From: Escallonia rubra
Lineage: Eukaryota; Streptophyta; Magnoliopsida; Escalloniales; Escalloniaceae
Length of the DNA stretch: 64,000 bases
Assembly (NCBI GenBank): GCA_033065855.1
Contig: JAVXUO010000733.1
Span: 248,001-312,000 of the forward strand
Direction of reading: 5' to 3'
A model generated the notes under the pieces. That model searched no databases. It was given only the letters and a program-made list of their open reading frames with translations, and was not told the DNA's origin. The position numbers and the translations under genes were made by a program. Positions 16,168 through 51,935 of this stretch are shown here, piece after piece (positions within the stretch are counted from its first letter, which is position 1; every line of letters starts with the position of its first letter).

Positions 16168-21357
<5,190 letters not shown>

Positions 21358-23966: not shown

Positions 23967-24479
23967 GACACTACAAGAAAACAGGCTTTTAGCGACGGGC
24001 CCAAAATCCGTCGCTAAAAGAATTAGCGACGGATTCACCGTCGCTAAAAACCCCTCGTATAAAAGCCCGTCACTAATAGTTTAGCGACGGAATTTTTAAC
24101 TCCGTCGCTAAATATGTCATTTTTACCAACGGATTTATTTTTCATTAGCGACGGATATTCCGTCGCTAATTATATTTTTAGAATTTTAATTTATTTTCTT
24201 TTTTGTCCAATTAGCGACGGATTAAATATTTTAGCGACGGAATATTTTAGCGATGGATTATATTTTCTTTTTGATAACATATGCAAGAATCTTTCCAAAA
24301 TATCAAAACTGCAGAAAGATCGTTACATATGTTACCAATTCCACATTAAATAGAATTCGTTGGCAACGAATTGAACTATCTCGTTGCCAATGGACTTCTC
24401 AGAACAACAACTAATATAAAGAAGGCAGGGTTTGTAAACAACGAGTAATTGAACCTTCTCTGGGCAATATGGAGTAATT

Positions 24480-25150
24480 ATGGGAAGGACAAGGGCTAAT
24501 TAGGGCTAACTATGTTATTAGGGTTAATTACGAGTATTAATTATAGCTAATTAAGGTTGATTAGAACTAATTAGGGTTATTTAGTCCTAATTAGGGTTTA
24601 ACTGTGCCGAGTAGTGCTAATTAGTCCTAATTAGGCTTAATTGTGTTATGTTAGGGCTAATTCATGTTAATGAGGGCTAGTTTGGCCTAATTATAGCTAA
24701 TTAGGGTTGATTAGGGCTAATTAGGGTTATTTAGTCCTAATTAGGGTTTAATTGTGCCGAGTAGTGCTGATTAGTCCTAATTAGGGCTAATTAGACTTAA
24801 TTGGGTTATGTTAGGGCTAATTAATATTAATGAGGGCTAGTTTCGGATAATTATAGCTAATTAGGGTTGATTAGGACTAATTACGGTTATTTAGTCCTAA
24901 TTAGGGTTTAATTGTGCCGAGTAGTGTTGATTAGTCCTAATTAGCGCTAATTAGGCTTAATTGGGTTATGTTAGTGTAAATTACGACTAATTAGGCTAAC
25001 TATAATCAATATGCGCGTAATTAGGTTCATTTTGGCTAATTTGGGGTAATTACAGCTACTTTGATTTTCATTAAGTTCTTAGGGTTAATTAAAACTAATT
25101 AGGCTCGTTAGAGCTAATTAATTAGGGTTAATTGATTTATTAAAATATTT
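24480..25150. repeat. TTAGGG-rich minisatellite, about 155-bp higher-order period
   Basis: Units of about 12 bp related to CTAATTAGGGTT are arranged in a longer repeat marked by GTGCCGAGTAGTG at 24604, 24754 and 24914 (spacing 150 and 160 bp). A similar array lies inside the large CACTA at 46.64-47.37 kb. Confidence 0.85.
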
Positions 25151-31868: not shown

Positions 31869-32789
31869 TTCTGGATGGCTCTCTAGTTTCTATTTCCGTA
31901 CTCAGATATATTTTGGCATTTGATTTTTGGTCTGACATCTCTACTGTCTGTCTTCGTACTCAGATATATTTTGGCATTTGATATTTGGTCTAACCTCTCT
32001 ACTGTCTATCTCTGTACTCAAATATATTTTGGTATTTGATATTTGGTCTGACATCTCTACTGTTTGTCTCCGTACTCAGATATATTTTGGCATTTGATAT
32101 TTGGTCTGATCTCTGTTCAGTTGAAACTGGTGTGCCTTTGAAATTTTTTTATTCATATATGTTTTGACATTCGAAATCTGGTTTGATTATTAGTTCCATT
32201 GAAAACTTTTGGGTCTGTCTTTGTATTCAGATATAGTTTGACATTTGAAATCTAGTTTGATTAATGTTCTGTTGAAACATTTTGTGCTTTTGAAATTTCA
32301 TTTCTCAGATATTATTGTTTTGTTTGATTGGTCCTTTGAGCGACCTTACTGGGCATTTGGCTCATTTCCTTATGGTTTTTCCTTTCAGGTGATTAGTAGG
32401 TGGGATTTCGGATTCGAAGGGCTAGCTGTGTGACCAAGAGTTAGCTGCCTTATTTCAGAGTTAGTATTGAAATTTAAGTGTAGCAAATAAGACAAGTTAG
32501 TGTTACTTAGGTTTCGTATTGAAACTTTGTGTTGGAGAAATTTTGGATTGTATAAAACCTTTGGACCCCTACGTCAGATATTTATGTATTTTAGGAATTA
32601 TTAGTATATGTTCTGATCGACCGTTCGGGAGATTTGTGATAAAAATTAAAGGTTTTCTGACTCCGTTTTTTTCTAATATTTTAAGGTTTTCTGATTTACC
32701 ATTTTGAAGTCTTCTGATAATTATAGGAATTTATCTGATTTCTGGGTATTTGGCATTAACGCTCCGTAAATAAATTTTGGGGCGTTACA
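31869..32789 (+). repeat. 3' LTR of element 2, 5' part missing
   Basis: This matches 28183-29161 closely, including the 58-bp repeats and a 62-codon chance frame (28891 and 32519) that differs at only about three residues. It ends GGGGCGTTACA at 32789. Everything corresponding to 26996-28182 is missing at the joint with the inserted repeat. Confidence 0.88.
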
Positions 32790-32799
32790 TGTATCCCTT

Positions 32800-32990
32800 C
32801 TGAAGCTCACTGAGTCCTAGAGTTAATAAGCGAGTTGTGTTTGCTTTTGAGTTGGTCCATTCTGATGTTTGGGGACCGTGTCCTGTTCTGTTTAAAACTG
32901 GGCCAAACAATGTTATCATGATTTAATACTCCCCCTCACGTGCAAGCCCTTGATTGCACGTGGAGAGACAGAAATAAACAGAAGGACATA
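32800..32990. pseudogene. Copia fragments
   Basis: On the plus strand, 32820-32890 reads SRVNKRVVFAFELVHSDVWG, the start of a copia integrase core. On the minus strand, 32990-32900 contains a run ending AGGGGGAGTATTAA, which looks like a copia polypurine tract and LTR start. The two scraps face opposite ways, so they come from two elements or from a rearranged one. Confidence 0.5.
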
Positions 32991-33011
32991 TATATATATA
33001 TATATATATAT

Positions 33012-33050
<39 letters not shown>

Positions 33051-33263
33051 GAGCTGATCCGTTGATAGCGCTAGCAAGTTGCTAGCGGTGTTTGGCCGTC
33101 CGCTACATAATGTAGCGGACGATAATTTACCGTCCGTAATGTAGCGGACGGTGAAAAAAATTGTTGTTATGGCGCGCGATCTGGCCGTCCATTCTCGGCC
33201 CGTGAACGGCCAGATCGCGCTAGCAACTTGGGTTAAGTTGCTAGCGCTATCAATGGATCAGCT

Positions 33264-33310
<47 letters not shown>
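32988..33310. mobile_element. Hairpin-rich element A, flanked by TA microsatellites
   Basis: A 216-bp body (33050-33265) sits between TA runs at 32988-33046 and 33266-33308. Its ends are inverted repeats starting GGAGCTGATCCGTTGATAGC (right end read inward GGAGCTGATCCATTGATAGC). Inside are a near-perfect palindrome at 33098-33120 (arms GTCCGCTACAT and ATGTAGCGGAC), a shorter one at 33130-33151, and a 15-bp-stem hairpin at 33174-33220 (arms GCGCGATCTGGCCGT and ACGGCCAGATCGCGC). No coding sequence. The layout resembles Micron elements reported from rice, which lie within TA microsatellites; whether it is related is unknown. Confidence 0.75.
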
Positions 33311-33311
<1 letters not shown>

Positions 33312-33960
33312 TACGATAATTGTCACTAAATAACCCGATCAATATCACTCATTGTAAAATTATAACTTATGATTTCTAAAATTTGTCGTTAAGGATAGCC
33401 GATAAAAGTTCGGTCACGCTAATCACTAATTTTTTTTAAATTAACCCGTTAGATTATATCGGGGTTTTACAACAACATTTTGTTCTTCTATTCCAACTTC
33501 AATCATGGATTAATAAAGGGTTGAAACTTGTAACGCACGCTTCTATTTAACTTGCAAAGAAAGCATGTGGATATAGTTTATTTTAATGAAAAAGTATTTA
33601 TACTCGTGCCAATTGAAATATGTAAGTTGTGAGTATGTTCATGCTTTGTACAATTTGACAGCTTGTAGAAGATAAACAAGTTAGAAATTATCTGCTAAGA
33701 TATACTTTCATCTATGTGTTGTAAGGTGGTAATTCATGCATCTGCTCAATTAGTGACAAAAGTGTCTGGATTAAGACTATCCCGATGAATATGTATGTGA
33801 ATATTTACCCATGCCAATAGGTAATGGTATGTTGTAAGTACTTCATAACCCAAAAGACTTTTGAGATGGAGTTGAATATGAGAAAATAATTCAACCCGAG
33901 TCGAATGGAGTTTCTTGGAAGCTATCAAGCAAAAGATGGGGTTTTATTATATCGATAATG
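33311..33960. other. Gene-free AT-rich stretch
   Basis: No gene or repeat recognised. Continuation of the downstream LINE fragment may begin near its right edge. Confidence 0.4.
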
Positions 33961-34472
33961 AGTTTTGTTACCAAAGTCTACTGTTTTTTCAGTGCCACCC
34001 CAACCCCAGATAAGAACAAGATTGTGTAATGCGATAAACAAACATCTCTCACAAATGGAGCAAAATTTGTTGATAGCCCCTGTGGATGAACATGAAATTA
34101 AGGAAGCATTTTTCTCCCTTAAACGAAACAAGGCACCAGGGCCTGATGGATACAATTATGAGTTCTTTCAACAAAATTGGGAAGTGGTGAGGCACCAAGT
34201 GACAGCTGCAGTAAAAGAAATGCTGAACAAAAACAAAGGTATCAAACTGTTTAGTAGCAGAAGTCTGACTCTAGTACCTAAGGTTCCTTGCCCTAGCAAT
34301 ATGAAAGAATTCAGACCAATTACCTGCTGCAATGTGGTATACAAGAGAGTCTCAAACATCCTATGTGCAAGGATCAAGAAAGTTCTCCCAAGGCTAATAA
34401 GTATGAGACAATCTTCCTTTGCAGCAAAAAGAAGTATAGCAGACAATATACTATTGATGCAAGAACTTGTTA
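33960..34472 (+). pseudogene. LINE (L1-type) reverse transcriptase fragment
   Basis: The frame reads EIKEAFFSLKRNKAPGPDGY followed by FFQQNWEVVRHQV, LTLVPKVPCPSNMKEFRPIT and RQSSFAAKRSIADNILLMQE. These are the first blocks of plant non-LTR retrotransposon RT (the APGPDG and PITCCN motifs). The catalytic FADD part and everything after it are missing; the sequence stops where a hairpin starts at 34473. A 5'- and 3'-truncated dead copy. Confidence 0.92.
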
Positions 34473-35545
34473 GAAACTATGGTGTATTGCTCATATCGAG
34501 CACCATAGTTTCTTATGTTCAATGTTATTTATTTAGCACATTTTCCTAAAAATGTTCTTCGCGGCTCTCAAGACAGGCATATCATGCCTAACTGCTACTA
34601 AGAGTTGCGGTAACCGCTATTCTTAGTAGCAGTTAGACGGCACTTCCTTGTGTCTTCCCTTTCCATCTCACTCTTATTTCTAATGCAACAGCATCGTACG
34701 ACCGTCCACCAAACAACCCACCCATCTCACAGCTCCCAATCGTACCCAACCACCAACACCACCATTGAACATCAGACTGACAAAGCTACAATAATAAAAT
34801 CAATTTAACGGCTGGTGTGTGAATAAGAAGAATTAAATCTTTGAGAAAAGTGTTTTAATTAACTTGGGTTTTACAATCTTTCTTGGTTTAATGGATGATG
34901 AATGATGCGATAGCAGTGTCGGCGTGGTGTGATTGCAACGTCACAGTTGGGCGATGGTCACATCGTCGTGGTGTGAGGGCGGCGTCGGCGACAACGTTGA
35001 GTTGCTGGTGTTTGTGATGCTGGTGGCTGTTGAGAGATTTTGGAAAGGGAGAAAATAGGTAAGTTGTTCATATGGAAAAGAAAGTGAGGAAGGGGAAGGG
35101 TAAGATGGTGTCGATTGGCAGTGGGTGGGTGAGGCGATGGATGGCAGTAGGGAGTGGTGGTGGTAGGGGGTGATGGTTGTGGTGATGGTGGAGGTTGTGC
35201 TTGTGGTAGGCAACGGTGGAGCAGGGAGACTATAGAGGCAGCTTGACCCATTTGCAAAAAAAAAAAGGAGAATAGGCAGTGGGTATGACAAAGCGAGGGT
35301 GTGAAAGGGAAAGGGAAGAAACAGGTAAGTGTTATCTTAACTGCTACACTTTGTAGCAGTTATGCAGTATATGTTTGTCTTGGAAGGCATGCGAGGGAGT
35401 GAAGGACATTTTGGGCACAATTCCTAACCGCTACAAAGAGTAGCAGTTAAGCTAGTTAGAATACAATTCCTAACGTGGACGGCCGGATGATTGGTAGAGA
35501 AATAATTGTTTCTCCGCTGGTAGATGTGGATCGGCTCTCATGTAC
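34473..35545. mobile_element. Hairpin-rich element D
   Basis: Each side carries two hairpins. Left: 34473-34512 (arms GAAACTATGGTG and CACCATAGTTTC) and 34589-34635 (15-bp arms TAACTGCTACTAAGA and TCTTAGTAGCAGTTA). Right: 35338-35362 (arms TAACTGCTACA and TGTAGCAGTTA) and 35425-35449 (one mismatch). Sequence next to the inner hairpins is itself inverted between sides (near 34548-34590 and 35363-35420). The right edge (GTGGACGGCCGGAT...GGATCGGCTC, 35474-35538) resembles the right end of element A, and an AC run follows at 35543. Its middle is low-complexity and non-coding. The left boundary is uncertain. Confidence 0.55.
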
Positions 35546-35760
35546 ACACACACACATCGGGGGGGGGGGGGGGGGGGCGATTCACATCTATCAGTGAAAA
35601 AATAATTATTTCTCCAATTGTGATATGGTTGTCCTCTAGTGGTTGTGGACGCTCAGGTTTGATAATTTTTTACATTATAAGAGTAGCGGTTAGGGGCCAA
35701 CAAACTGACAGACAGCTCAAACCGACTGGATTCGCAGGAAAATAGAGGGGTAAGCCTAAC
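35546..35760. repeat. AC run, G tract and inverted-repeat flanks
   Basis: CACACACACAC is followed by about 18 G at 35561-35578. Sequence on both sides is inverted: GTAGAGAAATAATTGTTTCT at 35491 and AGAAATAATTATTTTTTCAC read inward from about 35615. No gene. Confidence 0.5.
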
Positions 35761-36256
35761 TGTAAGCCAAAACTTTATGCTTGTGTATCAGCGAGAAGAC
35801 ATGATCAGGCTTTTGGTATGGTGCATCAAGCGGCCGAGGCAAGCTATTAGCATGGTAGTTTTCGGCATGAGTCGGTACGAATGGAATGTGCTTCACCATG
35901 CTTTTATAAGACGTACGTAGTTGTCATTTTACTTTACTTGTGTTTATGTAAAAATTGAATTGACTCAGTATCAGATCTTATATACAGATTTCTTAACCTT
36001 CTTAAAAATAAAAACTAAAAAACAAAAACGTCCTTGTTACATAAAGAAAGAAGTCACCTTGTGTCAAGAAAACCTCAAAATTTCATCTACCCACTTGTCC
36101 AAGTTAAAGCAACATAAACCTTAATATAATCCCCTCACTCTGAAAACCCACCATCTTCATTCCAATTTCCAACACTCTGACGCTCCACTGCTTCCCTCTT
36201 TTCATCCTCCCAATAAATCCAGAAGCTGAGCTAACTAAGAAAACCCATCACTAAAA
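35761..36256. other. Upstream region of the geranylgeranyl reductase gene
   Basis: No repeat or gene recognised. It presumably holds the promoter and 5' leader of the gene starting at 36257. No convincing TATA element was found. Confidence 0.4.
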
Positions 36257-37648
36257 ATGGCCGCCCAATCCCAACCCCACCCTCTCCACTCCCTCACACG
36301 CACCCTTAAAGCCTCTCCAGCCTCGCTAGAGCTGCTCAGAAAACCGAGCAGGCTCATAGTCGCCGCCAAATCAAACCCCCGTCCAAATCTAGGAGGCCGG
36401 AAGCTGCGCGTTGCTGTCGTCGGCGGGGGGCCCGCCGGATCTTCTGCCGCCGAGTCCCTCGCGAGGGGCGGCGTGGAGACCTTCCTCTTCGAGCGCAGCC
36501 CCTCCGCCGCCAAGCCCTGCGGCGGCGCCATCCCTCTCTGCATGCTCGACGAGTTCGACATCCCCTCGCACCTCGTCGACCGTAAGGTTACCCACATGAA
36601 GATCATCTCTCCGTCTAACCTCACCGTCGATTTCGGTAAGACCCTCAAGCCCCACGAGTTCATCTCCATGCTCCGTCGCGAAGTGCTCGATTCCTACCTC
36701 CGCTCCCGGGCCGAGTCAAACGGCGCCGTCTCCATCAAGGCCCTCGTCACCAGTCTCGAGGTCCCTTCCTCCCCCCACGCGCCATACCTCGTGCACTACA
36801 CGGTCGACAACTCCACACAGAAACCCCTGGCCGTCGATTGCGTCGTCGGCGCAGATGGCGCCAACAGTAAAGTCGCCAAGTCCATCCACGCGGGTAATTA
36901 CGCCTGTGCCATTGCCTTCCAAGAGAGAATCAGATTGCCGGACCACAAAATGGAGTATTACAACAATCTCGCCGAGATGTATGTCGGTAACGACGTTTCA
37001 CCCGATTTCTACGCCTGGGTCTTCCCCAAATGCGACCATGTGGCGGTCGGAACCGGGACCCTTCGCTCGAAAAAAGATATCAAGCTGCTCCAGTCAGGCA
37101 TCAGAGCGAGAGTCCTGCCCAAGATAGAAGGCGGAAAAGTCATCAAGGTTGAGGCTCACCCAATACCTGAACACCCACGCCCGACCAGGGTCCGGGGTCG
37201 GGTGGCGTTGGTCGGGGACGCGGCGGGGTACGTGACGAAATGCTCCGGCGAAGGGATCTACTTCGCGGCCAAGAGCGGTCGGATGTGCGGGGAGGCGATC
37301 GTGAGGGCGTCGGAGGGCGGAGACAGGATGATCAGCGAGGAGGATCTGAAGAGGGAGTACTTAAAGGAGTGGGATGCCAAGTACATCAACACCTTCAGGT
37401 TCTTGGACCTGTTGCAGAAGGTGTTCTACGGCAACAATGCGGCGAGGGAGGCACTGGTGGAACTGTGCGGGGATGAATATGTGCAGAGGATGACCTTCGA
37501 GAGCTACTTGTACAAGAAATTGGCAACTGGGAATCCGTGGGGGGATTTGAAGATGCTTTCTGGTACAATTGGGAGCTTGGTCAGGTGCAATCTTGTCGGC
37601 AGAGAGATGGAGGTCTTCAATCAAAGTGTTCTTGCCAAGGTGGTCTAA
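36257..37648 (+). CDS. CHLP: Geranylgeranyl diphosphate/chlorophyll reductase, chloroplast
   Basis: An uninterrupted 463-codon frame. The enzyme uses NADPH to reduce the geranylgeranyl chain to phytyl for chlorophyll, tocopherol and phylloquinone. Residues 1-45 are Ser/Pro/Arg-rich, as in a chloroplast transit peptide. A Rossmann FAD-binding motif follows (VAVVGGGPAGSSAAESLARG, about 53-72), then CKPCGGAIPLCM-like sequence near 86-96, AFQERIRLPD, DFYAWVFPKCDHVAVGTGT, and the second flavin motif VGDAAGYVTKCSGEGIYFAA (319-338). The length fits the family (about 460-470). The body matches plant CHLP closely, but the last 50 residues (KKLATGNPWGDLKMLSGTIG) differ from the usual ending as I remember it, so it may be a paralog. 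It is intronless and much more GC-rich than its surroundings, especially at third positions. Confidence 0.93.
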   Translation: MAAQSQPHPLHSLTRTLKASPASLELLRKPSRLIVAAKSNPRPNLGGRKLRVAVVGGGPAGSSAAESLARGGVETFLFERSPSAAKPCGGAIPLCMLDEFDIPSHLVDRKVTHMKIISPSNLTVDFGKTLKPHEFISMLRREVLDSYLRSRAESNGAVSIKALVTSLEVPSSPHAPYLVHYTVDNSTQKPLAVDCVVGADGANSKVAKSIHAGNYACAIAFQERIRLPDHKMEYYNNLAEMYVGNDVSPDFYAWVFPKCDHVAVGTGTLRSKKDIKLLQSGIRARVLPKIEGGKVIKVEAHPIPEHPRPTRVRGRVALVGDAAGYVTKCSGEGIYFAAKSGRMCGEAIVRASEGGDRMISEEDLKREYLKEWDAKYINTFRFLDLLQKVFYGNNAAREALVELCGDEYVQRMTFESYLYKKLATGNPWGDLKMLSGTIGSLVRCNLVGREMEVFNQSVLAKVV

Positions 37649-39040
37649 CTCGGGGGGTCGATCCAACGGCTCGCCACTTCCTATAGTGAAGTTGCGGCGG
37701 TCATGAACCCAGAAATTAGAAGGGGGAAAGAGAGATTAAAAAGAGTGCAAGTATCCTTCATTATGTATTGCATAACTAGCCCAGTAACACGTATCAAGTA
37801 TGAAACCATCTTAATACTTGTCTTTTACCTTAGAACTGTATGTAAACTTCATTATGTATTTCATAAATAAAAAATACTAGTGTTTTTTTCGAATTAGTGA
37901 ATTTCATTTGAACATAATAGATTAATTAGAAGATTATTTAGTGCACAAAAATGGATACAAAAGTAAACCCCGCTCATATATGTATGCGAAAAATATATTG
38001 AGACTTATTTGTTATTGCATGAGATTTTTTTATTGTTCTTGTGTAAGTATCTTTTGAAAGTAATTTACACATTTTAATGGCATGGTAGTTTAATTTTGAC
38101 AGAGAAAATATTGGTTTATATGCATAAAAGTTTACCACACGATTAATTATATATCGATCAGTTAGGGCATTTAGGCGGAAGCGTATACCAACAACAGTAA
38201 AGAGAGAGAATAATAACATCAATATGTTATAGTATGAGGCAGTTACATACTATTGTTTAAAATGTTTAACTAATAAAGAGGATAGCTCAAAACCTCATAA
38301 TAATCAAAATGTTTAACACAACTTAACCAATATTTAACAAGATATTTAATAAATATGCTTATTAAGTTAGACTTTTCTTATTTATAAGAAGATTTTCAAC
38401 CTAAATTGGAGACTAACTTAATTACAATATAAAAATATCTTTTTAAATTTTTTTATATGTAATGTTTTTCTACACATCTAATTTTATTTTTTTTATATAT
38501 TTATAAGATAGCTAGGGTCTTTAGGACTATCAAAGTAAAATGATGTCATAATATATTGGTACATTGTTAGGTAAAATTTAGAATGCTTAAGAATTTAAAT
38601 GCTCACAATAACAAAAGATTTGTTTAAAATTATTTTCAACATAAAATTAGTTGAATTTGGCTCATTGCTTTATCCACTATATTATACAAATACCTTTACT
38701 TATGTCAAATTTGGCTCACATCTTTGTCCACCTTATGTCGTGGCTAAAAGATAAAGTGACGGAATATGGTGTAAAAATAAACTTTGTCTACATTTATTGT
38801 CAAATATCGTAAGATTTTAATTCTACTTAATTTTTTATATACCTCACATAAAATTTGCACACAATGAGTTTCTACATTTAACCAACGCGACTTAATACGA
38901 TAGCGTAAAACCGTAGAGTAAGCAAATCATTGACCAAAATTTAACGAAAATTTTTACCAATATGTTTAGATATATCTTTGAATATACCAAGATCATAAAT
39001 CGAGTTGCAATCTGGCTTAACCATAATATAACTAACTTAT
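37649..39040. other. 3' flank and AT-rich intergenic DNA
   Basis: AATAAA near 37865 is a possible poly(A) signal for the upstream gene. The rest is AT-rich with no recognisable gene. A segment near 38162 (GGGCATTTAGGCGGAAGCGT) resembles 30430 inside gypsy element 2, which hints at another old LTR fragment. Confidence 0.4.
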
Positions 39041-39049
39041 CTTCTTTTA

Positions 39050-39051
39050 GT

Positions 39052-39106
<55 letters not shown>

Positions 39107-39395
39107 CTAATCCCTTGCCTCTGCAATAAACTTCAGTTAAGTTACCAACGGCATCTGGCCATTCATCTATCCATCAAAGATGGACATACAATATCTAACT
39201 TTTTTTTTTAAATTCCTCATCTGCTACATAATGTAGCAGACGGTCCATTTGACCAAATGTTGTTCCAGCCCCTATCAAGTTAGTGGAACAGTGCCCGTCT
39301 GCCACATAATTTAACAGATGATGGGGCATTGTTCAAAATTTTAAATCGTCCTCGTCCGCTACATTATGTGACGAACTACTGGATATTTTATCCCC
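39050..39395. mobile_element. Hairpin-rich element B (partial)
   Basis: A TA run and a GA run (39050-39106) precede GAGCTAATCCCTTG, then AGTTAAGTTACCAACGGCAT and CTGGCCATTC, which follow the same order as the left end of element C at 50360. Palindromes occur at 39220-39240 (arms TCTGCTACAT and ATGTAGCAGA around one base) and 39354-39376 (degraded). The right end is not recognisable. Non-coding. Confidence 0.6.
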
Positions 39396-40299
39396 AAGTC
39401 GTAATCTTATTGCCTCTCCATTGAGGTCCACTTGCTTCCATATTCAGGTCCACTTCCCTTCAAGTTTCAAGCTCGAGCTAGCCCTTGACGCTCCAAGCTT
39501 CAAGCTTCACTCAAGCAACGTAAATTTATAATTTCAATGGCTTATTGGTGTTTATGTCTCAATTAGGAAAGTTCACTTCAAGAAAAAAAGACTTTTAGCG
39601 ACAGACATTTATGTCACTAAAAGCCCTATATCTGTCACCAAGGACTTTTAGCGACGGACACCCCATCGCTAAAAGTCTGTTGCTTGTAACCCCGTCGCTA
39701 AAAGTTTTGCGACGGATTTTTGAAATCCATCGCCTAAAGTCGACTTTAAGCGACGGACGTACTAATACAATTAGCGACGAAATTTTCATCGCTAAATATA
39801 TTTTTCGTATTTTAATTTATTTATTTTTTTAAAAAAAATAATTTATTACGTAAAATATTTAGCGACAGAACAATTCGTCATCAAAACTTTTAACGACAGA
39901 CATTTATCGACGGATTATCCGTCGCTAAAAATTATTCAAAATTTGATGACTTTTAGCGAGGGAATATCCGTCGCTAAAAGTTTGTCGCTTAAAACTAAAA
40001 GTCATTTATTCACATAATAAGTAAGACTTTTAGCGACGGAATAAAATCCGTCGCTAAAGTCAAACTAATTTTAAAAATATTTTTTTTAATACACAAACCT
40101 GTAATTACAAATTATCAGCAATCATTCTCAATCCAGCAAATATTTCTCGATGCACATTAGGGTTAAATAATTTTTGATCCATCAGCAATTATTTAACCCT
40201 AAAATGTATACAAACAAAGTTCAGGTGGGCACGAGAGCGGGGTACAATAGAGTAGGGGAGGGGAGTACAAGTCGGGGGGGGCACAGGATCGGGATACAA

Positions 40300-41760
40300 A
40301 CAGCTAGGAGGGGAAGGGCTGATCAGGGGTCAGCGATTCCCAGATCCGGATCCTGCTGATCGTCCTTGTACACGGGGACACTGTGATCTGGATCCGGCTC
40401 GGCATGTCCAGTAGCAGTGCCCTGCATGTAAAGGCACAGACGCATTAATCTCGATAGTAATCGTATGTAGTGTTTACTAAACATATATAGTGGTTGTACC
40501 TGATTATTCGTCGTGATCATCATATTCACGTCCGCAACAATGCGACGGATCTCGTCCTCTTGTAACGACAGTCACTCCGCGGTCGGTGTCTGCATCTGTG
40601 GAGGGGCGGCGGGAGGTGGGGACGCTCCTATCAGGGCACGTGTAGTCGTACCGGGGAGGCTGCGTACGTGGCCATTCGGCCTATTGACGACCCCGGTGTA
40701 TCCAGCCATCGCTTCAATCCTCCAGTACTCGTGCCCGTACTTGTGGATGCTGATGGATGTCTGAACTGCTACCCAGACCCCCTGATCTGTTTATACGAGG
40801 CCTGCAAAATTGTGATTTGACATTCAAAATATTAAGGCGACAAATATCGAATACAAAGGCACAAATTTAACAAACTAAACAAATTAATTCGTAACTTACA
40901 TCGATCTGTCAAGAAATATCTCAAACAAAGTCCCCGGCCCAGTGTGCATCATCCTTATCCTTCTTCCTCAAGTGCGTTTGACTGTACGTCAGAGCTACAA
41001 CCTCATCCGTCGCCAGGTTTGGGTGCTCAACCGCATTCTTGTGTCGGAGGACGTCGTGAGCCACTAACCCCTCCGTGTGCGTGGGATCTTTCTCGTGTCT
41101 ATTCTCGCTCTCACTCCTACTCTTGGCCTCTCAGGGTGGATCAGTCCTCTACTTATCAACCATTTGTCCCCATACAGATGGAAGTATCCAATAAGGGGGA
41201 AATCCCTTCCACTCCTCCATCGGGGTAACCTCGGACGTCATCTTCCTCGCCCGCTCCCACGCATCTTGCAGCCATCGTCGATAATTTTTGCCGATGTAGG
41301 CAAAAAAAGCCCATCGCCCCAACGTTTATGGCTCAGGCGACTCAAACTTAAACCCCTCTTGCAAGGCATCCAATTACACAATCAATACGATTAATTTAAA
41401 ATTACGTTCTAATTAAACAAATAATGACTGACAAAAAGGAAAACCATACCAGCCACTCCTCCAATAAGGACTCCCTCATCGCGGCATCTCAGTCCTTCTA
41501 GTATAGTCGTGGCTCAAAGAATCGGCCCTTTATAATGACGCCGATCTTTGTCTTTGCCGGAGTCTCCAAGATCCTGATAAAGAAACAAACATCGAATATA
41601 TTAAATAAGTGGACCGTAATAAATATCAGAATTGAAGATTGTAAGTACTGCATTACGTAATTTTTTAACTTACTGGCCCTCCTGGGTGAGATTCACTCTC
41701 TGTTTACGCTGGGAGTCGATGCACACCCCATGTGTCTGTCCACGACCTCGTTGAGATTCT
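40300..41760 (-). pseudogene. Second CACTA gene, Ptta/Transposase_24-like, broken
   Basis: On the minus strand, 41120-40900 reads THTEGLVAHDVLRHKNAVEH then VVALTYSQTHLRKKDKDDAH, compatible with the conserved region of plant Ptta/En/Spm accessory proteins (usually HKKKDGTFVDERSR-type). Stops and intron-like gaps interrupt it, and neighbouring pieces at 41876-41670 and 40529-40323 cannot be joined with confidence. The family assignment is tentative. It lies downstream of the TnpD-like gene, in the same orientation. Confidence 0.45.
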
Positions 41761-42223
41761 GTAAAACACCAATAACAATATAAAATCAAATATAATTTAA
41801 ATATAAGTCTAGCATTATGACCAAACTCCATTATCAAATATACATGAGGTAGAACCCACAGAAGAAGGAGAACCACTGGGTGTGTGGGAGGAATCAGCTT
41901 GGGGCTGGGCCCGGGCAGCGGCTGGGGCTGGGCCCCCGCCTGCTAGATGTGAGCACTATGTGCCTCATCATCAGTGGGCAATGACGAGGTGGGAGCCACA
42001 GGGGTGGACGTAGCTTGGTGTCCACCGCTACCACAAATGGCCCATAATCTATCCATTTCTGACTTCGTGTACAACAAGTCCAAAAGAAATCAACACATTA
42101 AAAACAATGTATAGTCTACAACATGTTACAACACTATATAAATGAATCGAGTATATATATGAACCGAGTAAAAAACACTAGATGAACTGAATACTAAAAG
42201 AATGCGTGTTACAATAGTACAAG

Positions 42224-45200
42224 TCAATCATCTTCATTTTGCGAATCATGACCATCATCATCGTCAGACTCATTATCCTCTTCTTCCTAGGACTCATCGT
42301 CCTCTTCTTCCTAGGACTCATCGTCCTCTTCGTCAAGTAATTCTTTCTCTTTGTCAGTAGACTCAGTCTCATCATCTTCAACACTTTCTACGTCTTCCGC
42401 GTCATCATTTACGATTTCTTCTCCTACATCAGTGTTGGTTGAAGAGGAAGATCTTCCTCCTCGGTGTTCACCTCAACAGGTACCAAGATAGGTACTTGGT
42501 CGGCCTGAAAGGTATCTACATCACTGTCATATGCCACATGCAATTTCTTGGACTTGATAATTGTATACCAATGTTAATTGGGATTTGCAATGTTTTCCGT
42601 GTAAAAGACTTGTGAAGCTTGACTAGCAAACACAAACGGCTCGTCTGATGCAAGTCTTGACTTAACATTGACATCTACAATCCCTTGCGAGCTAACACGG
42701 ATTCCTCTACTGCATGTGACATCAAACCATGTACACTTGAACATTACCAGGCGATTTCGGGAACCCAGATATGCTAGCTCAACTATCCCATCCAGCTCTC
42801 CATCAAAGTCCATGCAATTCTCGTCATAGCTGTCGACGTTGACCAAGACTCCACTGTTTTGAGTTTGTTTTGTCCGATCATCATCTTTTACGTTAAACCT
42901 AAACACATTGATGATATAGCCTCCATGATGGGCTGCTTGTTTACTAGGGCCTTGAGTTAGTAATTTCAACAAGGAGGCTACCGGAGCATCGACCGTCTGA
43001 ACCTATTATAGAAGACGGTGAAAGTCAATAAACCACATAGTTGTATATAACACATAGTATATTTTGGTTAAAGACTTACACGTCTTCTGAACCACTCTAC
43101 AAATTGCAATTTTCGATGAGATTCAAGTCCAGCGAGATCAGTGATTAAAGATTCTGCATCAAACTCACTACAAATCGAGAGAGTTAACCCACTGATCACA
43201 CATTTTCAATTATGTACAGTAATTATCTGAAGTCAGAAACTTACTCAACGAATGCTAAAACTTCATTACAATTTAGAAGGGCATATATTGTTACAGCACT
43301 ATACTCTGCATCCGTTAGCCACCGAGTATAGGTTCATCCGAACGGACCACCTAACTGCTTGAATATTGACAATTGCCCTTCAAAATGTGTGCTGGCTACT
43401 GGCTCATTTCGCCCTAGTTGATTTAACCTTCTATCAACATTAGGCCCAAAATATTGGCTACAAAAGTTTACAAACTCTTTCATTACGTAAGTCTCAGCAA
43501 TTGAGCCATCAACACGAGCTTTATTACGAACATTCTTCTTCAAATGGAACATGAACCTACAAAAGTTAATTTAACCTTGTATCAACATTAGGCCCAAAAT
43601 ATTGCATTACGTGTAAACGAACAACATAGAGTTAAAACAATACCTCTCGAATGGATACATCCACCGATATTGTACAGGCCCACTCATCTTAGCCTCATAT
43701 GCCAAGTGAATGGGCAAATGCTCCATTGAAACAAAGAATGACGTTGGGAAGATTTTCTCGAGCTTGCAAATTGTCAACACAGTGTTCTTTTCAAGTACCT
43801 CCATGTTACTCACCCGAATTGTAGAAGAACGTATATCTCGAAAGAAATGAGATAATGCAGTTAAAGTCTCGCATACAACCCTTGGCAACAGTCTCCAAAA
43901 GGCAATAGGAATGAATCTTTTCATAAATACATGACATTCGTGACTCTTCATCCATTGGAACTTGTGTTCCGATACATTACAGCAACGAGATATGTTGGAC
44001 GCATACCCATCCGTAAGCTTCAAATTCTTAACCCACTATTAGACCTTCTCCACATGTTTTTTCTCTAGATAGTAAGGTGCTTTCAGAAGTAGCGTCCTCC
44101 CACTAACTGTCCGAGGATGCAGTTCACGGCGTACACCCAACTGTTGTAGATCCTTTCTCGCTTTAAGGTGATCTTTCGATTTCCCCTTGACATTATCATT
44201 ATGTTGAACACATTATCAAAAACATTCTTCTCAATGTGCATCATATCCATGTTGTTTCGGATAATGAGTGTCCTCTCTAGTAGTCTAACTTCCAAAAAAT
44301 ACATTGTTTCCTCCAGTCGTGCTCTTTCCCGTATCCTGGAATCTTCTTATCCGACACACCCTTGTCGTATAGTATGTCAGTATCAAGTGCCTCCAGGTGC
44401 GAGAGCACTTCTTCACCAGATGGGTAGTCCATTGTGACAACCTCACGCTCAATTGTCCCGTCGAATTTATCCTTCTGCCTACGGAACTGATGGTCTTGTG
44501 GCAAAAGCTTTCGGTGACATTCGAACCACGAGGGCTTCCCACCATGCTTTAACGTATGCATAGGATTCATACCCATACAAGCAGGGCATGCTAACTTTCC
44601 ATGTGTGCTCCACCCCCACATCACTCCCAATGTGGGGAAATCGTGTATAGTCCACATCAAAGCAGCCATCATCTGAAAGTTATGTTTAAGGGATACATCA
44701 TAAGTTTTGACTCCATGATCCCATAGATGTTTGAGCTCATCAATCAATGGCCTTAATTACACATATAAGTCATTACCGGGATTCTTCAGCCACGGAATAA
44801 GCAACGACAAAAATATGTATGGCTTCTTCATGCACATGCCGGGATGAAGGTTGTACAAGACAATAATAACAGGCCATGTGGAGTAAGGTGTGCTAGACTG
44901 CCCAAAAAGGTTGAACCCATCGGTTGCCAAACCAAGTCTAACATTCTAAACTTCCTGATCAAAGCTTGGATGCATGTGGTCAAACTCTTTCCACGCATCT
45001 CCATCAGCTGGGTGTGTCAACACATCGGCATCGTTACTACGAGTCTCACAGTGAGCCCTCATATGTTCAGCCATATTAGAGGAGTAGTACATCCTTTGAA
45101 GCCTTGGGGTAACGGAAAAATATCGCAATACCTTCCATGCAATGTTTTTCTTCTTCCCTTTATCCGGTTTATACCTAGAATGATCACATACTGGACACCG

Positions 45201-45890
45201 TGTCAAGTCCTTATTCTCTTTCTAGAGCAATACACAGTCGTTATTGCACGTATCTATCCGCTCATAGATCAATCCAAGTTTTCTCATCATCGTCTTCGCA
45301 TCATAGTACGACAGGGGCAGCTTTTCACTCGTCGGTAAAATTTCTTTGATAAAACTAACAAACTCATTAAATCCTTTCTCATTTAGCTCGTGGTTCGATT
45401 TTAACTGTAGTAACCTACTAACCGTAGACAACCATGTGTGTTTCCGAATTCCATCCCACAATGACTCATTCGCGTCTCTTAACAAATCATAAAACTGATT
45501 AGCCCTATCGCTCGGCTGCGGGGGACTGTCATCGCCCTGGTAGTCACCTCATTCAACATTAGCATGCCCAACATCTATAATCATATCTCAGTAATCATAT
45601 TGTGCCTCCTCTCTAACTTCAGCTTGACTAGCCGGGTTGGATGACAATACTATCGATTTCCCGTGCTGCATCCACCTTGTGTATCCACCCATAAAACCGT
45701 ACCGGAGAAGATGCCATTTTACCACCATTCTTCTTCTCCAATGCAACAACTCACATTTACTGCACTGACACCTTATCATCTCAAAGTCAACATATGCAGG
45801 ATGCGCGTAAGCAAACTCGAGAAATTCATCGACGCGATCCTCGAAATCATCATCATTCTTCTTTTTCATCCAACTTCGATCGACCGACAT
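42224..45890 (-). pseudogene. CACTA transposase, TnpD-like, degenerate
   Basis: Domains follow the usual order on the minus strand. The transposase-associated domain begins at 45890 (MSVDRSWMKKKNDD, with CQCSKC near 45775). The Transposase_21 core covers about 45200-44280 (CPVCDHSRYKPDKGKKKNIA, then FPTLGVMWGWSTHGKLACPA and the GKPSWFECHRKLL segment). MDMMHIEKNVFDNVFNIMI is at 44250. A DUF4218-type segment is at 44023-43607 (WRLLPRVVCETLTALSHFFR) and a DUF4216-type segment at 42972-42574. A short acidic tail with stops ends at 42224. Frameshifts and stops (for example near 45490, 44760, 44040) make it non-functional. It would cut and join the element's ends. Confidence 0.92.
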
Positions 45891-46639
45891 GACAACTGAG
45901 ATTACTATATACCTCCTTCAATTAAAATCGAATTTTAGGCAGAGTCAATGTGAAAATAAATGCATGCATGTGACAACATGTCTATACCCCCTCCATTCTC
46001 TAGTAAGTAGTGTTCTTATTTCATTCAGAAAAGCATATGTTTATAAAACAGTTACCAACTCATGCTTAGTCATATGTTTGTGAAAAATTCGGCAGCATCT
46101 CCCCGTATTTCTCCAAGTACACGACATCGATTAGGTGTTCTAACATCCGTCTAATCTTACTCTTGCAAGAATTAACGGATGTTAGAACACCAGATCTGTA
46201 TGCACCCGGAGAAACACTGGAGAACGTGTAGCAAATATCCACGACATATAACACAGAGCATGAGTCGATACACTATTTTATAAGCACTTAGCTTTTCCAA
46301 ATTGTCCAAACTGGACATCTAAAGGCTCATTACAAAGCATTACTTTGGAATAAGTACCTTTGAACGGGAACTAAGGATTTTTATGCATGCATGCATTTGA
46401 AAATTGATAACATATGCAACCATCTTTCTAAAATTTCAAATTTTCAGAAAGATGAAATCATTAGGTTAATTTGCAAGAACATGTCATAACCAAAATCATT
46501 CACTTTCAAATTCATTGACAACGAGTTGTAACTAAGTCGTTGTCAATGGACACCACAAAATAACAATGAATATTCCTAATGTGGGCGGCTCACATTTTTC
46601 GATGGAATATGGAGTTCATTCGCGGAGTTGATATCGTGT

Positions 46640-47370
46640 CACCTATGATTGTGATGGGGTTTAGGTTTAGTTAGGGTTAGAATTGTATTTAGGCTTATCA
46701 AGGTTAATTAGGGATGTATGAGGGTTTAATTAGGATAATTAGGGTAATTAGGGTTTAAATAGATTAATTAAGGTTTATCAAGGCTAAGAAGTAGGACTAT
46801 TTAGGATTTAATTAGGGTAATTAGGTTAATTAGGGTTTATCGAGGCTAATTAGGGTTAATTTGGATAATTAGGGTTTTATTATGTTAATTAGGGTTAATC
46901 GGGGCTAATTAGGGTTAATCGGGTTCTATTAGGGTTAATTAGTATTAATTAGGACTAATTAGTGTTAATTAGGGTTTAGTTAGGGTGTATCAGGGTTAAC
47001 CCTAATTAGGTTAACTAGGATTAATTAGGGTTTAGTTAGGGTTTATCGGGGTTAATTTGGATAATTAGGGTTTAATTAGATTATTAAGGTTTAATTAGGG
47101 TGACTTCAAGATGTGTTAGGCATTAATTAGGGTTAACTAGGGTTAATTAGAAGTTCCTTAGAGTTAATTAGGGTTACTTAGGGCTAACTAGGGTTAATCG
47201 GGTTCAATTGGGGTTAATTAGTATTAATTAGGGCTAATTAGGACTAATTAGGGTTTACTTAGATTAATTACGGCTAATTAATTAATTAAGATTAATTATG
47301 GTTAATCAGGTTCAGTTAGGGTTACTTAGTATTGATTAGGGCTTAATTCGGAGTTAATTAGGGTTAATTA
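46640..47370. repeat. TTAGGGTTAA minisatellite inside the CACTA element
   Basis: About 730 bp of degenerate repeats related to ATTAGGGTTAATTAGGG. A similar array occurs in the truncated CACTA fragment at 24.48-25.15 kb, which ties the two elements together. Confidence 0.88.
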
Positions 47371-48057
47371 AACTTCTAGTACAATTAAACATTATAACAA
47401 TTATAGCAATTATAACAAACCACATACAATTACACTATACATTATAACAAATTAAATTCAATTATACTTTCATGCATTAAACCACATGCATTAAAATAAA
47501 TTAAGGTAAAATGGAGAATACAAGAGGTGGTGCGGCGGCAGGGGCGGTGGTGGCGCGGCAGGGAGGAGGGGCACAGTGACGGGGGGACGTCGAAGTGAGG
47601 AAAACTTGTCGGTGAGAAACTGAGAGAGAAAAACGGGGAGAGCGAAAGAACGGAAGAGGGCTTTTTATGACAGGACTTTTAGCGACAGAAAATTCCGTTG
47701 CTAAAAGTCTGTCAATAAAAGTCATAATATTTACATTTTAAGCGACGGCTATTTTTAGCGACAGAAAACTTCACTACTGAAATACTTTTTTGCGATGGAA
47801 TATTTAGCGACGGGGCAATTTCGTAGCTAAACATATATTTAAAAAGGTGATCGAAAATTACAAAATTTACAAAAACTTTTAGCGACAAAAAAGCCGTCAC
47901 TAAAAATCCGTTGGTAAAAAGAACGCCAGTAAAGATTTTTACCGACGGGCTACTCCGTGGGTTACCGACGGATTTTTAGAGACGGGGTATTCCGTCGCTG
48001 AAAGTGAATTCTGTTGCTAAAAGTCCGACGCAAAAAACCATTTTTCTTGTAGTGGTT

Positions 48058-48422
48058 TATGAGATTATGTTTGTTGTATTTGCCATGTCTAAATTATTAA
48101 ACTTCTTTTTTTATTTTCATTTGTTATGTTTAATAAGATGTTATAATTTTCTAATTAATGTTACATTTTGAAACTAAAACATAGGTTTTTTTTTCTTCAT
48201 ATGTCTTGTTTTACAATATCCGATTTTGAAACAAGCTTGAACATACCACTACATGCTAGTGACCCTTATCTAGGGTGAACCGTTTCGACTATTAGAAGAA
48301 ACCGAAGAATGCTTTCGAGCGTATTCGTTGAGAGTTGGTTTTAGCATTAGAATCAAGACAACTAGAACAAGTTCCATAAACAAGGAAAGTAACATGTCGG
48401 TAATGATGATGGTGAAGATGAA
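48058..48422. other. Short gene-free stretch
   Basis: AT-rich; the right part may belong to the N-terminal region of the following FAR1/FRS-like pseudogene, but I cannot read a convincing frame. Confidence 0.35.
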
Positions 48423-50165
48423 GTGGGGCATGCGCCTAAAGGCGAGACTACTTTGCACGCACAGATGCAAGGTCAACATGTTCTAAGCTATAAAACCAAA
48501 CAAGATCGTTGGGTAATTACTAGCTTGGGATTGGCAAACAATTACCTGTTAGTGACGCCTTCAAAGATGAGTCAAATGCCTCAATACAAGAAAATGAGCA
48601 GTTTTGCAAGGACCTTGATTCATACAATTAGTGCAACATGGATGGGACCTACAAACATTGTTAATGTTCTTGCTGAACAGGCAGGAGGAATTCAAAATTC
48701 AAATTTCAATGCGACAAACATTCGAAACGTGATCCAAACCCAAAGACAAGGCTCGTTTGACATCAGTTATGCTTAAGCCACAATGAGCCTATTGAAGCGT
48801 ATGTAAATGGAGGACCCATGATTTACATACAGCTTTAGTCTTGACGATGAGCACCGAGTTACAACAATTTTTTGGGTTGACGAGCGTTCTAGACAGGAAA
48901 AAAATTGGCTGCTATCCAGGTTGGATGAATCTTTCTCCTACCCCTTACATAGCGACAATCAATCGTCTCTAAATATTTCTAGTGGCTTTATTTAGTGACG
49001 CTAAAAAAGTGTTGCTAATATTTGTCACTAAAAGTGTTAGAAGAAAAGCCACTAGAAACATTTAGCGATTATTAATTGTCACTACATATGGGATTGGAGG
49101 AAGATTCCTACAACCCGGGTAGGAGCAAAAGTTTATTCTTCTAGACATGCTTATCAATTTTTTGAGGATCTTATGTCTTTTGATACCATCTACCGTACTA
49201 ACAAGTATTCGATGCCTTTCGCTCCTTCCACCAGCGTTAATCATCATTATCACTCTATCTTGTTTGGGTTCACATTGTTAAGGGATGATAAAAAAAAAGT
49301 TATGTTTTATGGTTTTTTCATACGTGGCTGGAAGCAATGAACTACAAAGTATCCAAAGTTATCATCATTGATCAAGATTTGGCAATGAAGAATGCTATTG
49401 TTACCGTCTTCCCAAAGACTCGACACAACTTGTGCGCTTGAACGTCTGCATCACGTGTATGCAAATTATCCAGACTTTAAAAAAGATTTTGACAGGTGTG
49501 AACAAGTCATTAACAATTGAGGAATTTGAAGAGATGTGAGGATTACTCATTGCTAAACAACGATTGGCTCTAACCGCTATGTAAACTCAAAGAAAAATGG
49601 ATTGGCGTTTATACAAGAAGGTATTTTGTTGAGGGATGCAAACAACGAGCAGGAATAAATCTATGAATGCCATATTTGATCGCTATGTAGGTACAGCTAT
49701 GAATTTCAAGAGTTTTGTAATAAATGCCCAAAAAGCAATTGCAGACATTTGTAAAAAAAAAAAACTGCTGAAGCACATACAAACAAAGAAAAAATTTGCT
49801 TGAGATCCCGTTGGAGGTGAATGGTGCAAAAGTCTATACGAAGGAGATGTTCAAACAATACCAAATAGAGCTAAAAAATCAAGACGATACATTATACACA
49901 AGGTGGCTGCAGCGAGCGTGAATACAAAAGTATATTCCTTGGCAAACGATCTTGCCCCTGAGAAAGTGCTAGACTGTATAATGTCTACCATGACACAAAG
50001 ATGAATACGGTGACATGAAGTTTGAGTTTTCTGGTATGTTGTGTCGACATATTCTACGATGGACTAAAATTGTGAATAGGTGACACGATAATATTGCCTT
50101 TTCGGAGCATCTATATACTAATTTTGAAGAATTGAAGGCATTGCGTTATAATCATCTCATGACAA
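48423..50165 (+). pseudogene. FAR1/FRS-like (MULE-derived) gene, broken
   Basis: Pieces follow the FAR1/FRS order. There is a basic DNA-binding region with WMGPTNIVNVLAEQAGGIQN near 48640, then DEHRVTTIFWVDERSRQE at about 48848. After an inserted MITE come FEDLMSFDTIYRTNKYSMPF, VNHHYHSILFGF and IIDQDLAMKNAI (DDE transposase-like core), KSFVINAQKAIADI near 49715, and a SWIM zinc-finger remnant MKFEFSGMLCRHILRW at about 50018. FAR1/FRS proteins are transcription regulators domesticated from Mutator-like transposases; related transposases also exist. Many frame breaks show that it is dead. I cannot tell whether it was a host gene or a Jittery-type transposon. Confidence 0.85.
48913..49121. mobile_element. 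Palindromic MITE with TA duplication in the FRS pseudogene
   Basis: A 205-bp body (48915-49119) is one large imperfect inverted repeat: left TCCAGGTTGGATGAATCTT, right read inward CCCGGGTTGTAGGAATCTT. TA flanks both ends. The size, foldback structure and TA target suggest a Tc1/mariner-derived MITE. It separates two conserved blocks of the FRS coding region that are adjacent in related genes. Confidence 0.82.
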
Positions 50166-50304
50166 TGTTTATGCGTTTGTTGTAAAGGGTTCTTCTATAA
50201 TGGCCGGATATAAATTTCTCCGCGATCTAGCACTAGGTCGGGATCCCATCTTTGACAAGTTTGAAATACCTTCAGCTTGAAATGCAAAGCACTGTGGTAG
50301 CATT

Positions 50305-50307
<3 letters not shown>

Positions 50308-50346
<39 letters not shown>

Positions 50347-51520
50347 GTGTGTGTGTGGGGGAGCTGATTCGTTGACCAAGCGGGCAACTCCAGCTAAGTT
50401 ACCCACACGATCTGGCCGTCGGGCCAGATCTAACTTTTTTTGAACTTTTTCGTCGTCTACTACATAATGTAGCGGATAGTTTTTTTTACCATATTACCCC
50501 TCGTTCGCTACATAATGTAGCGGACAAGCCAAAGACGTTATCTGTGTTCATATATGTGTTGACTGTGTTCTTTGTTTATTCTGTGTTCATGCTTTGTGTT
50601 CTTTGTTGCTTTTAATCCAATAACCAAGGAATTCACAAACCAAAACAAATCCTTTATTGCTGATTCCACAAACATAAAATTGGCTTCTCAATTTCAATAT
50701 TCGATTTGTGATGGATTCAAGAATAAGAAACAAGATACAAAAGAAGAAGCATAGGAAACCACTCAGTTCATAACGGGTACAACTCCTGGTGGCACCATTA
50801 TTCCACCATTTTGCCCAGGCCACCACCAATGACCTCCTCCACCATCTCACACATCGATCCACCAAAAAAACCCACCACCACCGCCCCAACCATCATCATC
50901 CAAAGCTCTACGCAAAAGAAAATATTAAACATATCTGAATTAGAAGAAATCTCGAGGAAATACTAATTGAATTAGAAGAAACATATCTATAATGTTGCAA
51001 CCGCGGCGGCAGAGTGGTCGAGGAGGCCGCGACCGCGGCTTGCGGAGTCGCCCAGGAGGTCGCGACCACGGCGGCGGAGCCACGGAGGAGGCTGCGACCG
51101 CGGCTTGCGAATTGGCTGTGGAGGCATCGACCACGACGGCTGACTACTGAAGATGCCGCAACTGGGCGGCGGTACTATCAACCTTCTACCTAAACGTGCT
51201 AGTGACGATGGAGGTCGATTGTTGGAGAGGCAGAGGAGGTCGTAGTTTAGAGAGAGAGAGAGAGATGAAAGTGAAATGTGAATGTGAAATGTGAACGGGC
51301 GTGTCTGTCTTTCTATATTTCGTCCGCTACATTATGCAGTGGACATACGATTTTGCTACATAGTCAACCGCTTGAATGAGAGGTATTTTTTATAAAATTA
51401 CAGTCCGCGACATTATGTAGCGAACCGACGTAAAAAAAATGCAAAAATTAAATCCGAACCGTTCATAAATTGCAGATGAACGGGCAGATCACGCAGGCAA
51501 CTCTAGCACGGGCTACGACG
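50308..51520. mobile_element. Hairpin-rich element C next to a TA microsatellite
   Basis: A TA run (50308-50344) and GT run precede GGAGCTGATTCGTTGACC at 50360, the same start as element A. A hairpin GATCTGGCC-GTCG-GGCCAGATC lies at 50409-50430. Palindromes related to arms GTCCGCTACAT/ATGTAGCGGAC occur at 50452-50476, 50503-50524, 51322-51344 and 51403-51425, two near each end. The right end (GAACGGGCAGATCACGCAGG near 51478, up to about 51520) is an imperfect inverse of the left. No TA run follows on the right. The interior (50540-51300) has low-complexity frames only, including GCGACCGCGG-type repeats at 51000-51140. Confidence 0.65.
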
Positions 51521-51935
51521 TCAACTTAAAATGCAATATTAATCTGGCTAGCAATGCGGAAAATGGCTCGATTGGGTCTGGAAACTTTGAATAGGTTTTT
51601 CGTTGTTTTTGTCTAGACTAGATGTTAGTTACAAAAATGATAGTGGGTTCGGGTTTCAAGGTCTAAGAGCGGATCAAATTGACCCATGTTCACCCGGAGC
51701 GTCTCCTCTGAGACACCATCTCCTCTTCCTGGGAACACCTCGCTCAACAATCTGCTCACTCTAACTATTCCTCCTACCAGCTTCTGCTGCAAATCATTGA
51801 AACCACCAGGAGGAAGAAGAAGAAGAAGAATGAAAACGATGACGATGATGATGATGATGATGATGAATCCAATCCCCCCCTCCCTCTCTCCATCATAAAC
51901 CCAAGAAACCAATCTCCAATCACCCCATAAAAATC
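51521..51935. other. Upstream region of the PPR gene, with GAA/GAT repeats
   Basis: A GAAGAAGAA run followed by a GAT trinucleotide run (about 51807-51866) lies 70-130 bp before the PPR start codon, possibly in its 5' leader. No other gene. Confidence 0.5.

Follow-up and report, generated by a model that had tools for sequence, protein, structure and literature searches.

Palindrome-rich non-coding elements at simple repeats in a 64-kb stretch of Escallonia rubra DNA, probably Mutator-like MITEs

Overview of the elements

A stretch of 64,000 nucleotides of Escallonia rubra DNA (contig JAVXUO010000733.1, positions 248,001 to 312,000; hereafter the window), which looks like plant nuclear DNA, was found to carry five related or similarly built elements, E1 (33050–33265), E2 (34569–35539), E3 (39103–~39390), E4 (50360–51533) and E5 (35574–~35736). 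These are aged copies, most of them damaged, of a short non-coding element of plants that resides in TA-type simple repeats, with sizes from 216 bp to ~1.2 kb. It is quite likely that they are non-autonomous, non-coding cut-and-paste miniature inverted-repeat transposable elements (MITEs), of a class that is most likely Mutator-like (Mutator-like element, MULE/Foldback), and that they insert in simple repeats, chiefly (TA)n. This reading rests on E1, E3 and E4 and on the ends of the elements. Common modular arms, inverted ends, a simple repeat at each recognisable end, a repeat linking E2 to E5 and an absence of visible coding content were all observed. The figures given for the elements are those of the 64-kb window.

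Anatomy of the elements

The arms follow a common order of modules, namely a 16-base terminal motif GGAGCTGATCCGTTGA, hairpin 1, the GATCTGGCCGTC hairpin 2 with its partner arm, a T-rich tract and one or two palindromes. The inner part of the arm runs from the T-rich tract through palindrome 3, a short spacer and palindrome 4 to the interior, the palindromes being of GTCCGCTACATAATGTAGCGGAC type, and up to four hairpin modules lie behind the motif in each arm. Seven arms were aligned in this one order, with modules absent in several of them; the alignment columns are on average 47% identical. The motif pair that had been proposed as common to all members proved to be limited, as the hairpin 2 partner GGCCAGATC is clear only in E1 and in the left arm of E4.

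E1 (plus strand) is a compact derivative with both ends kept, these forming inverted repeats of ~30 bp. Its left arm consists of the terminal motif, hairpin 1 and palindromes 3 and 4, with hairpin 2 absent, and its right arm of the terminal motif, hairpin 1, hairpin 2 and the T-rich tract, ending before the palindromes. Palindrome 3 (33097–33121, plus strand) has a perfect 12-bp stem and palindrome 4 (33127–33150, plus strand) has a left half which by eye is ~5 bases short; hairpin 2 (GATCTGGCCGTT / ACGGCCAGATC, 33177–33217) and the right hairpin 1 with its GCGCTAGCAACTT stem (33217–33247) are on the minus strand. As had been reported for one of the elements, E1 is enclosed by TA runs on both sides (32988–33047 with one G inside, and 33266–33308).

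E4 (plus strand) is the longest copy, with two arms around an interior of ~0.8 kb and only its outermost right bases gone. Its arms are identical to each other at 122 of 158 aligned positions, the left one carrying hairpin 2 (50408–50431), palindrome 3 (50455–50477) and palindrome 4 (50503–50525) on the plus strand, and the right one palindrome 4 (51322–51344) and palindrome 3 (51403–51425) on the minus strand. A TA run followed by a TG run (50307–50357) stands to its left. E3 (plus strand) has its left arm kept, with palindrome 3 (39219–39241) and a decayed palindrome 4 (39297–39319), both on the plus strand, and its right arm only from the palindrome inward (39354–39376, minus strand). Its terminal inverted repeats are kept only in part, and its right edge is approximate. 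To its left is a TA run and then a GA run (39052–39105).

E2 and E5 make up a second group. E2 (plus strand) is its longer copy, with the right end kept and the left outer arm gone; its inner arms are inverted repeats, with a left palindrome at 34588–34635 (plus strand) and right palindromes 4 and 3 at 35338–35362 and 35425–35449 (minus strand). An AC run followed by a G run (35544–35577) links it to E5 (plus strand), which is one arm, the left arm of a further copy whose remainder was not found in the window. The original prediction had listed four members only and missed E5, which begins just past this AC/G run. It had also started the second place at about 34473, which takes in ~100 bp outside the inverted repeat of E2; the start is to be moved to ~34569, where that repeat begins. 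The segment 34473–34546 still belongs to an open reading frame (ORF) with a reverse-transcriptase match (33962–34546, Pfam match at residues 109–168) and is not part of the element. The letters A to D under which the places had been described were out of coordinate order, the TAACTGCTACA form and AC run belonging to 34.5–35.5 kb and the TA and GT run to 50.36 kb.

Common motifs and relatedness

With up to 3 mismatches allowed, the 23-base palindrome GTCCGCTACATWATGTAGCGGAC was matched seven times, always within E1, E3 or E4, and 100 shuffles gave 0.00. At up to 6 mismatches, and for the TAACTGCTACA form, all palindrome matches fall inside the four places first described, which bears out the claim that these places have palindromes in common. 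The terminal motif GGAGCTGATYCRTTGA had 3 matches with 0.12 expected and the GATCTGGCCGTY motif 4 with 0.21 expected, both only in E1 and E4, and at looser settings both also match elsewhere in the window. The common ends that had been claimed were recovered in part; the terminal motif is present in E1 and E4. An exact GGATCAGCTCC occurs only in E1, the corresponding end of E2 reads GGATCGGCTCTC, and in E3 and E4 this end is gone.

E1, E3 and E4 are one family and clearly homologous. Leave-one-out profiles still find E1 at a best expectation value (E) of 5.3e-11, E3 at 1.6e-15 and E4 at 1.7e-11, and the arms of the three compared among themselves give z scores of 3.9 to 11.7. The right arm of E2 and the left arm of E5 agree in 102 of the 132 positions aligned (z 8.7), and these two elements form a second group with a common plan and perhaps a common origin with the first. 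By sequence this link between E2/E5 and E1/E3/E4 is weak, and it rests mainly on architecture; the full-profile match to E5 came from a profile that had E5 in it. The interiors of E2 and E4 aligned end to end give z 7.8 against dinucleotide shuffles, falling to 2.4 (2 of 200 as high) with local composition kept, and their local alignment gives z 1.7, which is under the reverse-strand value of 3.4.

The counts bear directly on the possibility that inverted repeats without common origin came to lie next to microsatellites by chance. Perfect hairpins (stem of at least 9 with at least 3 G/C, loop of at most 8) are present outside the elements too, with 16 in 61,138 bp, as against 6 in the 2,862 bp inside. 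Together with an expectation of zero palindrome matches and the leave-one-out matches for E1, E3 and E4, this makes a chance gathering extremely improbable; it is refuted for E1/E3/E4 by the counts, and for the link to E2/E5 the exclusion is weaker and not full.

An exact search with the 21-base core of the palindrome gave one match in the viral_contigs collection (L001:1530–1550) and none in genome_contigs; records near the window may be absent from the collections searched. By eye the viral contig looks like T4-like phage DNA, with the palindrome between two long ORFs and the rest of the arm absent there. This match is probably due to chance or to a terminator hairpin.

Simple repeats at the element ends

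All six recognisable ends (both of E1, the right of E2 and the left of E3, E4 and E5) were found by eye to meet a simple repeat, in the form of TA, AC, GA, TG or G runs, and none of the four lost ends does so (by eye). The E5 end is the softest of the six and merges gradually into the G run. The microsatellite association that had been likened to that of rice Micron is well supported. A dinucleotide run of at least 6 units is present within 15 bases of an end at all four of the listed places, and none of 20,000 random placements put even three of four places beside runs, although the test is generous in that the ends were set after the runs had been seen and the E2 run is only 6 units long. 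The sorting into recognisable and lost ends is the more informative comparison. (TA)n lies within 25 bp of E1 on both sides and of E3 and E4 on the left, whereas E2 and E5 have AC or G and no TA run. In the one case of neighbouring copies, E2 and E5 are linked by the AC and G run and are not nested. No arm match was found beside the other AT runs of at least 13 units (86–112 and 17493–17527). As has been argued for the GA/TC runs of the pineapple elements (PMC8449440), runs of GA, TG and G may have arisen secondarily, by expansion at the element's own end letters, instead of being separate targets.

The same kind of MITE could have been moved by a Tc1/mariner (Stowaway-like) or other transposase, with TA as the target duplication and the TA runs grown from it. 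TA at both ends of E1 and the absence of any visible 9–10 bp duplication agree with this. However, the terminal motif is unlike Stowaway ends, mariner ends are short in contrast to the long modular arms seen here, and AC, TG, GA and G runs are also found at ends, not TA alone; this origin is considered unlikely. Alternatively, the copies could have multiplied through circular intermediates, with repeats filling their junctions, that recombined homologously, and not by direct transposition into a repeat. This would agree with the different repeats met by the ends of different copies and with the repeat that links E2 to E5. Such a model is stated for the SaTar elements by Valdes Franco et al., where it is called speculative (PMC5907723). 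Mixed runs are also explained by slippage after insertion, as described for pineapple (PMC8449440), and the present data do not separate the two; recombination of circles is held to be an improbable route here.

Coding content and proposed mode of movement

As had been noted originally, none of the elements appears to encode a protein. No ORF of at least 130 amino acids (stop to stop) is present in E1, E3 or E4, and a Pfam search at 0.001 gave no match for the two such ORFs of E2. The Pfam scan of window ORFs of this length covered 20 of 24 ORFs.

The assignment to Mutator-like MITEs follows from the existence of a published kind with the same traits, namely MITEs of Mutator origin that sit in microsatellites. 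The class of transposase, the targeting and the role of the palindromes are the proposed parts of this explanation. A Mutator-type transposase encoded elsewhere would bind the arms, in which the palindromes would act as two-fold symmetric binding sites. It would excise the element and insert it in a TA run, where a 9–10 bp duplication would be invisible. The repeats beside the inserted element would then grow by slippage, and ends would be removed by later deletions.

Several observations weigh against this explanation. No transposase with these ends was seen in the window, nor was any copy outside repeats, so that none in unique DNA with a 9–10 bp duplication was found there. The right arm of E4 is detected only at E 0.012 by the profile made without E4, and the profile made without E2 and E5 detects an E2 arm only, at E 0.047, leaving E5 undetected up to E 1. 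Ten comparisons of E2/E5 arms with E1/E3/E4 arms gave z scores of -0.5 to 3.9, and E2/E5 may be a separate family of similar plan. Furthermore, the window contains no match, with as many as 3 mismatches allowed, to GGGGTTTGCTAGAACA, the terminal inverted repeat (TIR) of the Medicago truncatula element MuTAnT and the only TIR string printed in the papers compared.

An ORF with a SWIM zinc finger lies at 61475–62146 on the minus strand and resembles the C-terminal portion of a Mutator-type transposase, or a gene that descends from such a transposase. By eye it is followed by a zinc-knuckle-like CX2CX4HX4C stretch, with repeat-rich sequence beyond. The arm profile gave no element end beside this ORF.

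The ends of CACTA elements begin CACTA. A CACTA identity was rejected for the present elements, as their ends begin GGAGC or GAGAGC instead and the CACTA-like piece that starts at ~39574 is separate from them.

Sequence and fold of the palindromes

The hairpins might have been kept for an RNA hairpin (a small RNA precursor) or a DNA cruciform, with sequence secondary. The fold of E1 is strong, its single-stranded DNA reaching -80.3 kcal/mol compared with -31.6 (standard deviation 3.2) in 200 shuffles, none of which was as low. The comparison covered a set of 11 palindromes, to which palindrome 4 of E1 (damaged), the palindrome of E5 (diverged) and one half of the left palindrome of E2 (34588–34611) do not belong. 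In this set two-sided changes occupy 13 cells with 6.2 in shuffles (0 of 500 as high), the covariation score is 0.334 with 0.194 in shuffles (0 of 500), 85.1% of cells are paired with a maximum of 47.1% when the arms are slid, and own arms form 96 of 121 Watson–Crick pairs with 83.8 when swapped (reached by 137 of 20,000). However, neither the number of pairs with a two-sided change (5, with 3.7 shuffled; 90 of 500) nor that of further pair types (11, with 10.2 shuffled; 195 of 500) is exceptional.

In the eight palindromes of E1, E3 and E4 own arms form 67 of 88 Watson–Crick pairs, no better than the 65.9 of swapped arms (8,270 of 20,000 reach it), and 11 of the 13 two-sided cells are in three rows from E2, the other two being pair 5 of E3 with both letters in CpG. 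Among the substitutions in these eight palindromes relative to the E1 letters, 15 of 20 are C>T or G>A and 10 are at CpG; as changes are mostly of this type, some two-sided changes can be two deaminations. In the inserted copies E1/E3/E4 each arm thus decays independently of its partner, as expected of copies that are dead and methylated. No match at gathering scores was obtained in Rfam. The suggestion that fold may count for more than exact letters is only weakly borne out, and maintenance of the hairpins chiefly for their fold is regarded as improbable.

Hairpin 1 was considered as a conserved fold and rejected. It is strong in E1, where 0 and 2 of 500 shuffles do as well, and in the right arm of E2 (5 of 500), but reaches 20 of 500 in the left arm of E4 and is no better than shuffled in the left arm of E3, the right arm of E4 and the left arm of E5 (274, 360 and 500 of 500, respectively). 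In hairpin 2 the letters of the 5' arm are stable (8 to 13 of 13 matching the right arm of E1, in six arms) and the partner arm decays, which weighs against a kept fold.

The inner GCTACA half-site is almost invariant in sequence. Around this near-fixed core the two groups differ symmetrically, with GTC...GAC in one and AAC...GTT in the other, a difference which, judged from the letters, fits either a two-fold protein site or the copying of one arm from the other. A more specific and improbable proposal is that the palindromes would serve as docking sites of two-fold symmetry, this symmetry, and not only the sequence, being kept while lineages of the element diverge, and that this symmetric module would tie the transposition complex to cruciform-prone TA runs. 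If true, this would offer a structural answer to how such elements find microsatellites. The way in which Mutator-type elements reach TA microsatellites is called unclear in the text seen of the carrot study (PMC8227079), and the guayule model describes itself as speculative (PMC5907723). Under the Mutator-like MITE reading, the palindrome-chain arms with their repeated two-fold core represent a concrete set of candidate binding sites.

Neighbouring genes and repeats

Besides the reverse-transcriptase ORF near E2, the window has a geranylgeranyl-reductase-like ORF (36239–37648) and a pentatricopeptide-repeat ORF (51867–54575). Pieces of a CACTA-type transposase are found on the minus strand (Transposase_21, 44280–44756; DUF4218, 43610–44035; DUF4216, 42577–43002). 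These lie in a CACTA-type transposon which extends from ~39574 to at least 44756, ~180 bp from E3, and which by eye begins CACT with TTTAGCGACGGA repeats. Hairpins at 24005–24170 have TTAGCGACGGA letters as in the CACTA-type repeats and are perhaps from a second such element.

A near-identical 58-bp tandem unit occurs at 28191–28478 and 31880–32109, each array being followed by a 74-bp repeat, which perhaps represents a duplicated segment. Long degenerate arrays of units like GGGTTAATTAG / TTAATTAGGGCTAA are present at 24604–25120 and 46702–47370. The elements themselves account for several microsatellites of the region and add one more case of a described class.

Comparison with known elements

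The letters of the palindrome and arms were not found in open literature text, with Repbase, P-MITE and the supplements of papers outside the search. Of 58 papers that contain at least one of six strings, the 20 listed match GGAGCTGATCC only and are unrelated by title and by the start of the abstract; another six strings, five taken from the palindromes and one from the arm, matched 0 papers. The sequence family may be catalogued already. The original prediction that it might be undescribed is possible for its letters, but does not hold for its kind, which is already described in Micron/rSaTar2, SaTar, MuTAnT, Ac-mMITE and MiM.

MuTAnT has modular foldback TIRs, measures ~200 bp to >1.6 kb and sits in (TA)n; its terminal G count is variable, a quarter of its copies are without much of one or both TIRs, and a putative autonomous Mutator-like element is known (PMC4486113). 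The present elements are like it in their modular foldback arms, TA runs, size range, copies with damaged TIRs and variable terminal Gs, and differ in that no autonomous MULE was seen in the window. The composite or palindromic arms of FARE1 (as cited in PMC4486113) and Tm1 (PMC3169594), which are relatives within MULE/Foldback, also resemble those found here. Tm1 has 9 bp duplications, and the word microsatellite never appears in its main text (PMC3169594).

The SaTar elements of guayule, rice, sorghum and citrus, in which Micron is included, are non-autonomous and measure 233 bp to 1.9 kb. Simple repeats of mixed type lie at their ends, duplications can be missing and neighbouring copies form arrays linked by repeats; 10 bp duplications are known in 11 of 15 guayule families (PMC5907723). 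The arrangement of E2, repeat and E5 resembles these repeat-linked, non-nested arrays, whereas the known 10 bp duplications have no counterpart seen here; the likeness to SaTar is by description and not by letters. The same applies to rice Micron/rSaTar2, which like the present elements is small, non-coding and in (TA)n, and whose superfamily was found mainly in Poaceae and Rosaceae in a survey of 207 genomes (PMC12550479).

Pineapple Ac-mMITE is in (TA)n and Mutator-related, with GA runs which are mostly 5' and are explained there by slippage after insertion (PMC8449440). The GA run at the left of E3 fits this pattern, again by description and not by letters. In carrot, 15 TA-flanked MiM families have been described, 3 of them with related putative autonomous Mutator elements (PMC8227079); these too are likened by description and not by letters. 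Arms with several palindromes are mentioned in the text seen for neither pineapple nor carrot, the string "palindrom" occurring 0 times in the carrot paper. Set beside these systems, the elements described here are a real family of a known kind, which is probably Mutator-derived and which has unusually clear multi-palindrome arms.

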